A stretch of 31,836 nt of DNA from positions 1-31,836 of IMG/VR virus record IMGVR_UViG_3300036852_000120. One strand, written 5' to 3'. Under the pieces are notes generated by a model. It was not told the origin of the DNA and searched no databases. It saw nothing but the letters and a program-made list of their open reading frames with translations. Below, piece by piece: positions 9,556-14,303 of the stretch. Position numbers and translations under genes: made by a program. Every line of letters starts with the position of its first letter. Within the stretch, counting starts at the first letter, position 1. The DNA comes from a virus.

Positions 9556-10001
9556 TGTCCGGCCCGCAGGACGGCGCTACGCCCACCACCGGATGAGTTC
9601 CACGCCTTGATGAGTTCCTGGGCCAAGGGGGTCCGTTCCAGAGCCTCACGCGCGACCCTGGCGCGGAACGGTCGAGCCGCGGTCCGCGGATGGCGAACCT
9701 TCTTGGCGAAGACGGTCTGGCTGCCGATGTTGAACTTCAGGGTCTTGGCCTGGCGCGGAACGATGGTGTGTTCCATCGTCCCGGCATCCACGAAGGCCGC
9801 GGTGTAGTGAGCGGCCACCGTGGCCTTGCGCTGCGAGGCGTTACGGACGCGGATCGACCGCTGGAGCCGTCCTGTCTTGACCGGGACGGCTCCTCTTGCC
9901 CGGCGCACCGTCTCGTCAGCCCATGACTTGCCGATGGGCTTGAAGACCTGACGGAAGGCCCGCAGGCGAGAGCGGAGTTCCTTAGCCCCCTGAAGGCTCA
10001 C
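9552..10001 (-). CDS. HK97 gp10-like neck / tail-joining protein
   Basis: A 149-residue protein with the typical features of the HK97 gp10 family: a basic N-terminal helical region, then VRRARGAVPVKTGRLQRSIR, where VPVKTGRLxxSI is the family signature, then a C-terminal RPFRARVAREAL segment. It takes part in head-tail joining. GTG 10001 is chosen because it gives an N-terminus close to family length; it overlaps the small upstream gene by 20 bases. Downstream it overlaps the tail terminator by 4 bases. Confidence 0.85.
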   Translation of the reverse strand: MSLQGAKELRSRLRAFRQVFKPIGKSWADETVRRARGAVPVKTGRLQRSIRVRNASQRKATVAAHYTAAFVDAGTMEHTIVPRQAKTLKFNIGSQTVFAKKVRHPRTAARPFRARVAREALERTPLAQELIKAWNSSGGGRSAVLRAGQ

Positions 10002-10933: not shown

Positions 10934-12799
10934 CTAGACGGTGAACGTGGTGAAGGCGGCGGGGTAGAGGGGAGCGAAGAAGTACATCGACACGAGAGCC
11001 ACGTCGCGCCCGGCCTTCGCCGGCACGTCGACCTGGAGCGTGTACGAGCCGTCCTCGGCCCACGCGAAGCCGCGGGAGGGACCGGCGATGACGTCCACGC
11101 CCGAGCCATTGAGGGCCGGGACGTGCACGACCGTGAGACCAGAGACGGACCCGGTCACCCCGCCACCAGCGGTGGCGTTCGCGGTGATCGAGCTGTAGAG
11201 GGGCTGGTTGGTCGTGGTGGCCTTGGCGTCGATGAACGCGGCGATGGCGTCCGAGTTCATCCACAGGGTCGTCGGGGGGGCGATGATCGCGTCGAAGGCG
11301 TTGGACCACGCCACGCCGAGGCTGAGGTTCTCGGGATCGAGCGCGGTATGCGCCCCGCCGTTGTCGTTGATGTCGGGATCGGCGAGAAGGGTGGCGATGG
11401 CCTCGATCTCGGCATTGGCGGCAAGCGACTCGGCGAGCAGTTCGAGGTATAGGCCCAGGAACTCCGGGCTTGACCGCTTCAGGAGCTGGAGGCTGATGTC
11501 TCCGGCCCCGCCGATGGTGATCATCGGGAAGGTCGCCACTTCGATCTCGGTGATCGAGCTGGCCAGCTCGTCCTTCTCCTCGGCCTGCACGCCCGTCTCG
11601 GGTCGGGTGACGAGCTTGGGCATCTTGAGATCCGTCCCAGATGCGGGGGTGGCCAACTGCCTCGTGCTCGCCAGGAACGGGCGGATACGCTGGATGACCC
11701 CGATCAGCTCGGAGCTGTAGGTCGGGGGGACCACGCCGATATTGTCGGTCGTGATGAGGTCGTCCAAGTCACGCAGCTGCGTATCGGAGAGGTGTTCGCC
11801 GGACTTCAGGCGAAGCACGGCAGAGAGCCAGTCGCCCATCTGGAGGACGGGCTTCTCCGGCTCCTTGGAGGGGATGACGATGTTGGTGCGCTCGCGCTCT
11901 TCGAGCTTCTTGGTCAGTTCGTCGACCTTCGCGTCGAAGCTCGTGGACATGGTCGCGATCTGCGCGGTGATGGGGCTGAAGTCCACCGAGGGCGGCGTGG
12001 CCGTCGCGGTTGACTCGCTTCCTTCGGGCACGATCAGTTCTCCTTCGTTCTTGTCTCGGACATAGGTGACCGAAGCCCTCTCGTAGTAGGGCTTGTAGGT
12101 GGTTGCGACGGCTTTCAGGCCGACACGGGTGAGTTCGGTGGTGCGCTGGTTGTCCCGATAGACGGTCACGCCCTTGCTGTCGTGCGGGTCGTACTCGATC
12201 GAGACGTGAGGGGTGACGCCATCGGAGGCGAGGGTCAGCGCCTCGTCTCCTCTCGGTGTCTTGGAGACACGGAAGGCCATGTACGCCCCATCGGATCGCT
12301 CTTCCAGGGAGATGCCCTTGCCTACGGGTGGGCCCTCATGACCCAGCCGCAGGACGACCTTCTTGGGATCGACATGGGCGAACGAGCCGCGCCTGAACGA
12401 CTCCAGCCCGATCGGGGTGTCAACGACCATGTCCCACGGGGCGATAAGGGCCCCGAGCTCGCGCTGGTCGATGGAGCGGACCTCGAGCTCGCCGAGGGGC
12501 ATCTCGGTGGTAACGACCTCGGCCAAGCCTCGTTCGCTGGCTGCCGGCTCGCCGATGTCCAGGGCCTTGGCAGCGGCCCCTACCTTGGAGCGGGCGCAGT
12601 CGCCGAACTCGGACTGGCTGAGTCTCGCCAGGGCGTTGCGGACGTGGTCCGCGTCGTACTCGCCAGCTGAGTTGCGGATGGGGAAGTGGCGCTTGGAACG
12701 AGGGGTTGTCCTGCCATCCTCGTCCTTCTCACCGTCCTCGACGCAGCCGAAGGCGGAATCGGGAAGATCGTTGATGTAGGCGGTGTCCCATTCGGCCAA
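10934..12799 (-). CDS. Prohead protease - major capsid protein fusion
   Basis: A single 621-residue frame. Numbered from TTG 12799, residues 1-85 (WDTAYINDLPDSAF, then HFPIRNSAGEYDADHVRNAL) are a small domain often attached to phage capsid proteases. Residues about 100-240 form an HK97-type (S21/U35) prohead protease with the probable catalytic His in LGHEG (H154) and Ser in PHVSIEYDP (S200). A coiled coil (about 277-304) resembles the delta scaffold. From about 315 to the end is an HK97-fold major capsid protein (TDNIGVVPPTYSSELIGVIQ, then MPKLVTRPET). TTG 12799 has GGAGGT eight bases upstream. GTG 12823 is an alternative start, but it has no Shine-Dalgarno sequence and lies inside a hairpin. 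In many phages these are separate genes. Confidence 0.85.
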   Translation of the reverse strand: MAEWDTAYINDLPDSAFGCVEDGEKDEDGRTTPRSKRHFPIRNSAGEYDADHVRNALARLSQSEFGDCARSKVGAAAKALDIGEPAASERGLAEVVTTEMPLGELEVRSIDQRELGALIAPWDMVVDTPIGLESFRRGSFAHVDPKKVVLRLGHEGPPVGKGISLEERSDGAYMAFRVSKTPRGDEALTLASDGVTPHVSIEYDPHDSKGVTVYRDNQRTTELTRVGLKAVATTYKPYYERASVTYVRDKNEGELIVPEGSESTATATPPSVDFSPITAQIATMSTSFDAKVDELTKKLEERERTNIVIPSKEPEKPVLQMGDWLSAVLRLKSGEHLSDTQLRDLDDLITTDNIGVVPPTYSSELIGVIQRIRPFLASTRQLATPASGTDLKMPKLVTRPETGVQAEEKDELASSITEIEVATFPMITIGGAGDISLQLLKRSSPEFLGLYLELLAESLAANAEIEAIATLLADPDINDNGGAHTALDPENLSLGVAWSNAFDAIIAPPTTLWMNSDAIAAFIDAKATTTNQPLYSSITANATAGGGVTGSVSGLTVVHVPALNGSGVDVIAGPSRGFAWAEDGSYTLQVDVPAKAGRDVALVSMYFFAPLYPAAFTTFTV

Positions 12800-12854
12800 A
12801 GCAAAAGACCTCCACTCCCGCACTTTTGGGACACGGTCCGTGCGGTGGGAGGTC
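12783..12854 (-). promoter_or_regulatory. Alternative hairpins over the capsid gene ribosome-binding site
   Basis: Two competing RNA structures can be drawn. Structure A has a 7-bp outer stem (12848-12854 with 12807-12813), a small internal loop, a 6-bp inner stem (12840-12845 with 12818-12823) and a 16-base loop. It buries the GGAGGT Shine-Dalgarno and the GTG at 12823. Structure B pairs 12827-12834 with 12783-12790 (8 bp, GTGTCCCA/TGGGACAC). Its upstream arm is the loop of A, and A's downstream arm lies in the loop of B, so nested folding of both is impossible. This suggests translational control of capsid synthesis. Confidence 0.5.
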
Positions 12855-12920
12855 CACGATGGCTTCGGGAGCAGAGGTACGGAGACCTACGGCCCGAGAC
12901 GTATTCGGTTGAGGGTGAGT

Positions 12921-14303
12921 CTACGCTACGGCGTCAAGACTCGGATAGACCTTCTGGCACCTCGGACACTTGCCGATATACGAGCCGGTCTGGGAAAGGA
13001 GCTTGTTGCAGGGCTGAAGTCTCCCGTGGAGGACGCGGCGGCCGTCGCAGCGGACTTCTTCACGGGATCGCTGCTGGATGGGGAGGCTCGCCGGGATCGC
13101 TTGGGGAAGTGAGAGTGGAACCGGGGCGTTCTCGACGTCTCCGGGTTCGAGCCCTTCCTTGGCCCTGATCTCCTCGATCGTGAGTATGCCCTTGTCGACC
13201 GCGATGCCGTAGACGTCGTAGCGGGTCTTCACGTCAGCCCGGAGGAGAGCGTCGGTGTTGAAGCGGGAAACCGTTGCCCTTGTCAGGAGGTCGGACATGG
13301 ACTGCTCGATCGGCTCCAGGTAGTCGGGCAACAGGCACGCCCGAACGAACTTGTCGAACTCCGAGGCGACGTTCTGGTAGGTGATCGAGGAGCCTTCCAC
13401 AGCCGCCTCCAAGAGCGAGCCGGGGATGCCGAACATCCTCGCCACGTCGGAGTTCTGGTGGTTGCGGGCTTCGAGCATCTGGGCGCCCTGCGGGTTCCCG
13501 TCGACTTCCGTGACCGAGTCGATGCCGGGGTCGATGACCCGGGGCATGTTGTTCGGGACGGAGACCCAGTCGGCCTTGAACGCGGCGGCCTCGTCGTTCG
13601 AGAGAGGTACGGCCGACTTGACCAGGGTCGATGCCCTCCCTCCAGCGGCGAAGTAGTTGGCCGCCCATTCTTGGGATTCAACAGCTACCGAGATGGCGGC
13701 TCCGCAGACCTGGAGGGGACCAACTCCTCTCAATGAACCGGGCTCGAGCATGAAGGGGATCTGGATCATGTCCGCATTGGGCATCAAGCGTCCCCTCCAG
13801 CGGATGATCGGGTAACGGAGGTCCTTGACGTTCTCCTCCACGGAGACCTCGGCCGGGTTGACCGGGATGAGGGAAAGAGCAACGTCGTCACTGTCCCTCG
13901 CCGCGACCCACCACCACGCCTCTCCTCGAGACGCCATGCAGTAGGCGGTCATGCGGAAGAACTCCCGGGACGTGGTGAAGGGGTTGGGGCGGACGATCAG
14001 CCGCGGTCGGTCGGTATCGGGCAGCTCTGCGCCTTGCCGGAACGCTCGCAGGGTCAGGGAACCCGTGACGTTGGCGATCAGCGTGACTGCCCGGAAGATG
14101 GCCGGGACGCCGAGGGCTTCCCGGTGTCCCGCCACCCTCCACGGTCTCGGAGTCAAGCCCTGGACGGCCATAAGCTGTTCGGTCAGGCCGGGATGATCGA
14201 CGAACGAGTCGATCGCCCGGACCTGGAGGACGGGCTGGAGCTCTCTCGCCGCAGGAGCGTTCTCCAGGGCGAGGAACTGCGCCACGCGGTCCCACAGGGC
14301 CAT
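12921..14303 (-). CDS. Portal protein (HK97 type) with C-terminal Com-like zinc ribbon
   Basis: A 460-residue portal, the dodecameric ring through which DNA enters the head. It has typical HK97-portal segments: VPAIFRAVTLIANVTGSLTL, then RPNPFTTSREFFRMTAYCMA, then ARMFGIPGSLL and FDKFVRACLLPDYLEPIEQS. ATG 14303 overlaps the terminase stop (TAATG). Residues about 412-460 add four cysteines (419, 432, 446, 449) in a CNKLL...KCPRC layout. This resembles Com, the small RNA-binding zinc protein of phage Mu. Such a tail is not part of the standard portal fold. It is followed by a 97-base leader and the capsid fusion. Confidence 0.9.
   Translation of the reverse strand: MALWDRVAQFLALENAPAARELQPVLQVRAIDSFVDHPGLTEQLMAVQGLTPRPWRVAGHREALGVPAIFRAVTLIANVTGSLTLRAFRQGAELPDTDRPRLIVRPNPFTTSREFFRMTAYCMASRGEAWWWVAARDSDDVALSLIPVNPAEVSVEENVKDLRYPIIRWRGRLMPNADMIQIPFMLEPGSLRGVGPLQVCGAAISVAVESQEWAANYFAAGGRASTLVKSAVPLSNDEAAAFKADWVSVPNNMPRVIDPGIDSVTEVDGNPQGAQMLEARNHQNSDVARMFGIPGSLLEAAVEGSSITYQNVASEFDKFVRACLLPDYLEPIEQSMSDLLTRATVSRFNTDALLRADVKTRYDVYGIAVDKGILTIEEIRAKEGLEPGDVENAPVPLSLPQAIPASLPIQQRSREEVRCDGRRVLHGRLQPCNKLLSQTGSYIGKCPRCQKVYPSLDAVA

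Follow-up and report, generated by a model that had tools for sequence, protein, structure and literature searches.

Our analysis of a 31,836-nucleotide stretch of viral DNA (the window; IMG/VR record IMGVR_UViG_3300036852_000120) suggests that translation of the capsid mRNA is controlled through its 5' leader, which the portal protein of the same phage would recognize, most likely so as to activate capsid translation. From the sequence comparisons described below, we place the probability of this reading at about 0.7. The leader, of ~110 nt, comprises a 5' element, a covarying hairpin (P1) and a second hairpin (P2) that hides the Shine-Dalgarno sequence, and the portal ends in a zinc ribbon resembling the Com protein of phage Mu. 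An earlier note on this DNA had drawn attention to P2 and had overlooked hairpin P1 upstream of it, the conserved element at the 5' end and the portal ribbon, which is the probable partner acting in trans.

Both genes are encoded on the minus strand of the window. The portal gene (12921-14303; PF04860, E = 3.6e-55) was assigned an ATG start by homology, and the gene at 10934-12799 encodes a protease-major capsid fusion protein (phrog_2263, E = 2.3e-47). The start of the capsid gene was placed at the TTG at 12799, 8 nt past the GGAGGT, because relatives begin at the same residue (TTG-AEWDTAYINDL in L101, ATG-AEWD in L002 and L013, consensus (L/M)AEWDTAYIND) and because this spacing fits. The GTG at 12823, which the earlier note had pointed out, is not the start codon. 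The first ~60 residues of the capsid fusion (AEWDTAYINDLPDSAF..., 12620-12799 on the minus strand) form a separate domain that was also seen in other contexts, in L003, in L004 and in Thermoanaerobacterium phage THSA-485A. Elsewhere in the window, a guanidine-III riboswitch model gave a weak match at 9861-9925 on the minus strand (26.1 bits, below the gathering score of 36).

Some 85 related loci, designated here by L numbers, were collected by scanning IMG/VR with portals. No cultured relatives were found by blastn, and tblastn with the portal recovered distant portals only, the best matches listed ending at about residue 414, short of the ribbon. The capsid protein of one relative, used as a query, gave no cultured match, and two scans of bacterial genomes detected no relative with this system. 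The closest annotated capsid-fusion relatives found were Orlajensenviridae-type phages (Microbacterium phage BonaeVitae) and Curtobacterium phage Barebow, with a capsid identity of about 24-26%. In these, too, a protease-capsid fusion gene comes after the portal, but their portal is ribbonless, their capsid start overlaps the end of the preceding gene and the leader was not found.

Hairpin P2 spans 12807-12854 on the minus strand and covers the Shine-Dalgarno sequence GGAGGT (12808-12813). The 7+6-bp stem over the GGAGGT and the upstream GTG, as described in the earlier note, was confirmed at its positions: a 7-bp helix (GACCTCC/GGAGGTC) pairs 12848-12854 with 12807-12813, a 6-bp helix (CCGCAC/GTGCGG) pairs 12840-12845 with 12818-12823, the latter arm containing the GTG, and GGAC/GTCC pairs at the apex. 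The predicted free energy of 12854-12807 was -26.3 kcal/mol vs a shuffled mean of -14.5 (z = -4.4), none of 500 dinucleotide shuffles being as low, and the GGAGG bases were paired more than 99% in the folded leader. For the wider region 12920-12770, whose folding the earlier note had proposed to compare with shuffled sequence, the excess of stability was moderate (z = -1.97), so the stability resides in the hairpin itself.

This hairpin recurs before the next gene across the related loci, the Shine-Dalgarno sequence always forming its 3' arm, and, with few exceptions among 36 leaders, the start codon lies 6-9 nt past the GGAGGY. When all viral contigs were scanned with the DNA pattern of one hairpin type, 11 stretches were retrieved, every one on contigs of this group. 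Upstream of P2, hairpin P1 (12866-12896, minus strand), the proposed protein-binding hairpin, has in the window an outer stem (12896-12893 with 12866-12869) and an inner stem (AGGT 12888-12885 with ACCT 12878-12875) that closes the loop CTCCGT (12884-12879). Further 5' on the same strand lies the conserved element AACCGAATA (12902-12910), a probable transcript start, and a -10-like hexamer, TAGACT (12918-12923), overlaps the portal stop codon and suggests a promoter. A TAnnnT was present in about 16 of the 36 leaders, mostly 7-8 nt 5' of the AACYGAAUA element; a consistent -35 box was looked for in the leaders and was not found.

The pairing of the leader was supported by covariation. In a MAFFT alignment of 32 leaders, which was not fitted to structure, 88.7% of the cells were paired vs 41-50% when the partner was slid, and both sides had changed in 84 cells vs 12-23. 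An alignment of 49 leaders to the covariance model, one that leans toward that model, gave 92.1% paired vs 40-50% and 150 double changes vs 16-28. The outer helix of P2 is biased in such counts because the leaders were gathered by requiring it; P1 and the inner helix of P2, which were not selected for, covaried most, the inner helix of P1 being 98.6% paired with several pair types common. The window matched the leader covariance model over its full length (73.6 bits, E = 4e-18, the window being itself a training row), the capsid leader was the sole strong match within the window, and no family in Rfam 15 matched it. The check for compensatory changes in related phages that the earlier note had called for thus came out positive for the main hairpin, in dozens of uncultivated phages. 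Together with the fixed position and the constant place of the Shine-Dalgarno sequence in the 3' arm, these changes mark P2 as a probable translational control structure over the ribosome-binding site of the capsid gene. The idea of a translational switch before this gene is upheld to that extent, and not in the form of two mutually exclusive hairpins (see below).

In the portals of this clade, a zinc ribbon is found at or near the C-terminal end. The ribbon of the window is encoded at 12924-13058 on the minus strand (EVRC...PCNKLL...KCPRC) and its cysteines are conserved. When compared with Mu Com (GenBank sequence) by hhalign, a profile led by the window tail scored 95.2% (E = 2.8e-8) and the class I tails, defined by CxxC...GRV.G.AEIKC..C and the most Com-like by Pfam, scored 90.8%. 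The window tail alone reached 10.4 bits against PF10122, under the cutoff of 22.9; the best of the single tails reached 20.8 bits against Pfam Com, also under the cutoff of 22.9 (E = 2.6e-4), and single tails matched the PHROG annotated as "translational regulator" at E = 4.3e-5. In the AlphaFold2 model of the portal, which was of moderate confidence as a whole, the ribbon had a pLDDT of about 80 and followed a low-confidence or disordered linker. Six portals (L040, L042, L043, L062, L084 and L085) continue past the ribbon with a C-terminal extension of 80-120 residues, which ends with a motif like VIRDExGRIxGxEEV.

The leader belongs to the capsid gene. Of 74 loci selected by their capsid protein alone, 54 carry it at E ≤ 0.01, immediately upstream of the protease-capsid fusion gene or of a small gene that precedes it, and it accompanies the capsid also in loci where the portal lies kilobases away (L008, L015, L061 and L084). 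The small gene, of ~70 residues (MAVxYEW...), lies between leader and capsid gene at 3514-3728 of L026, with similar genes in L014, L027-L029, L031-L033, L074, L075, L079, L082 and L083; in that position it would be the first gene under the control of the leader. In L059 and L069 the leader was first scored absent and divergent versions were then recognized by eye. A 16-bp perfect inverted repeat (GTTACGTCGCCTAGAG / CTCTAGGCGACGTAAC), unlike the other leaders, follows directly after the portal stop codon at ~2470-2550 of L107, and a near-repeat (GAGCGCCTAGAGCGCCGG / GAGCGTCTAGAACGCCGG) is found upstream of the capsid gene in L116 and L117, where the ribbon is of class I.

Within the capsid-chosen set, the portal lacks a ribbon in 13 loci, and none of these has the leader. 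The leader was missed in three ribbon loci, L111 (its partner L069 being one of those with a divergent form) and L116 and L117, in which none was recognized, and it was weakly scored in a few others. L107, seemingly a leader without a ribbon, was found to have a divergent ribbon when its portal tail was read. The ribbon changes once on the capsid tree, and ribbon and leader arose once; being a single evolutionary change, their association by presence counts as one test, and class switches inside the clade were therefore examined.

Class I ribbons pair with type C leaders, and other ribbons with types A and B. On the capsid tree, 11 loci have both a class I ribbon and a type C leader, 51 have neither, 2 have the ribbon only and none has the leader only. 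Five changes are implied, and 3.7 of 4 supported independent pairs agree with none opposite (median p = 0.125, where with fewer than six independent pairs a p of 0.05 is unreachable). A narrower rule joins a Glu three residues before the third Cys with GA in the P1 loop, and other residues with GU. On the portal tree we counted 14 cases of Glu with GA, 2 of Glu with another loop, 3 of GA without Glu and 41 with neither (Fisher 4e-9, kinship ignored); on the capsid tree, 5.2 of 6 supported pairs agree and none is opposite (median p = 0.0625). The loop calls of eight leaders were made on a second candidate hairpin, at the position given by the covariance model, and L044 was left out. The ribbon and leader classes and the Glu-GA rule were framed after viewing the same data, and these are supporting tests, not blind ones. 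Exceptions are L120 and L125, which have a class I ribbon and no type C P2, L145 and L147, whose loop is CCAGC, and L065, L077 and L002, with a GA loop and no Glu.

The loci L084 and L085 have switched class in both ribbon and leader, which lie ~3.6 kb apart. Their portal DNA is mostly 92-100% identical up to the ribbon, with one or two comparison windows lower; identity is ~45% over the ribbon and the start of the extension and then 80-93% in blocks. It falls again over the leader, flanked by the end of the upstream gene at ~90% and by the capsid codons at ~97%. The two loci also differ in a cassette between ribbon and leader (3560-5230 of L084). Four leaders were read before their portals, namely L126, L135 and L145 (type C) and L122 (type B); the portals then proved to be of class I in the first three and to carry a non-class-I ribbon in L122. 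From a later scan, L224 has a class I ribbon with a P2 of GAGGACCTCTGAGCCCC and a P1 of GAGAGCCGGCGAGCTCC, each containing the full double Com motif described below, and L208 has a non-Glu ribbon with a P1 of GUCGC-CGCCGU-GCGAC. These portals and leaders seen later, few in number, agree with the ribbon-leader pairing.

In phage Mu, Com activates translation of mom via an mRNA hairpin beside a structure in which the start codon lies (PMC6483171). When a Mu-like Com was used for SELEX, GAGNNCC was recovered, mostly as GAGNNCC(N)2-3GAGNNCC, and RNA with CC(N)2-3GAG in a loop was bound by Com with the GA protected (PMC6483171). The full double motif was found 7 times in the 910 nt of ten type C leaders and was absent from 130,068 nt of background sequence in those loci, and half-sites numbered 25 in type C leaders vs 1.3 expected, counts to be read with the fact that the ten leaders are not independent because of shared ancestry. 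Of the 32 leaders of types A and B, two had a half-site and none had the double motif. The motif lies over the anti-Shine-Dalgarno strand in several type C leaders, and a protein bound there would therefore compete with the stem that hides the Shine-Dalgarno sequence. Most class I leaders have a P1 whose stem carries a C(N)2-3GA loop, as does the mom site of Mu. P1 of the window reads AGGU-CUCCGU-ACCU, and neither a GA loop nor a GAGNNCC target was found.

The system thus resembles Com/mom in its zinc ribbon, in a structure hiding the start region and in a separate small hairpin just upstream, and its class I members share the Mu loop form and the double motif as well. It differs in that the portal carries the ribbon as one of its domains whereas Mu Com is a free protein, in that the next gene and proposed target is the capsid gene instead of mom, in that the loop of the window class ends in GU where the Com target has GA, and in that a conserved 5' element and a probable promoter belong to the leader itself. 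By analogy, we regard it as a system that works like Com/mom, without strict membership, since there is no free Com, no mom and another loop in the window. A search of the open-access literature returned no paper describing this capsid leader or a Com domain carried by a portal.

From these patterns we infer that the portal ribbon binds P1 and probably also the 5' arm of P2. Such binding would open P2 and turn on capsid translation, in the way that Com acts on mom, and capsid would then be made in quantity only with free portal present. Incorporation into procapsids would take portal away from the leader, and this could help to keep the supplies of portal and capsid in step. The full model, with the portal as a sensor-regulator whose ribbon activates capsid translation through the two-hairpin leader, coupled to unassembled portal and with a diversifying Glu-GA/other-GU code across the clade, seems to us slightly better than an even bet. 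That binding would activate rather than repress is the less certain step, drawn from the Com analogy and the hiding of the Shine-Dalgarno sequence.

Structural proteins often repress their own operons, and the ribbon could bind the leader with the opposite effect, excess free portal stabilizing P2 or blocking ribosomes in a negative feedback on head-gene translation. The evidence related to binding (the class switches, L084/L085 and the Com motif) would fit repression in the same way. We nevertheless consider repression unlikely, as P2 alone hides the Shine-Dalgarno sequence almost completely and a repressor would add little, as a protein on the type C motif would compete with this hiding, and as Com of Mu is an activator (PMC6483171). 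Somewhat more doubtful still is a leader that serves another factor (a host protein, a small molecule, temperature or the capsid protein), the portal ribbon having an unrelated role such as contacts with DNA or in assembly. The single joint origin of leader and ribbon would allow this, being by itself no proof of a link, but the coordinated switching of the two, the L084/L085 pair and the presence of the Com SELEX motif in the leaders of Com-like ribbons all argue against it.

A reading of P2 as an intrinsic terminator or attenuator of transcription whose overlap with the Shine-Dalgarno sequence is secondary, as the TTTTGCTTT after the stem in the window might suggest, was rejected on the variation of the T-tract (2 to 7 T in the 8 positions past the stem, at least 6 in only 12 of 36 leaders) and is highly improbable, P2 being absent from the terminator scan list and its conserved 3' arm being GGAGG at a fixed distance to the start codon. 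Equally improbable is the version of the earlier note, in which the main stem and an 8-bp stem between the P2 loop and the capsid coding sequence exclude each other. The 8-bp stem exists as letters (12827-12834 with 12783-12790, minus strand), a perfect complement that was seen in the window only and would arise about 1 time in 100 by chance for that loop and ORF start. It was rejected as a switch, since forcing it costs 9.4 kcal/mol, its pairing probability is ~0 in pseudoknot-free folding and no counterpart was found in 35 homologous leaders. Across 36 leaders, the longest match of the hairpin interior to the complement of the first 45 bases of the coding sequence averaged 4.44 vs 4.35 expected, and L101, with identical N-terminal residues, has no complementary loop. 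The 3' half of the stem encodes part of the conserved EWDT and the 5' half belongs to the conserved apical element of P2; we judge the match coincidental. In principle, the 8-bp stem and the main stem might coexist as a pseudoknot. Silent changes in TGGGACAC are predicted to have no effect on expression.

How phages obtain one portal per procapsid, and no capsid without a portal, is a long-standing question that is usually answered by nucleation and not by gene control. If capsid translation is indeed controlled by the portal, this would be a direct genetic answer to that question. It would also extend Com-type RNA recognition past DNA modification and define a new structured RNA family, and the clade would offer many natural protein-RNA pairs with switched specificity from which to learn how a small zinc ribbon reads RNA.
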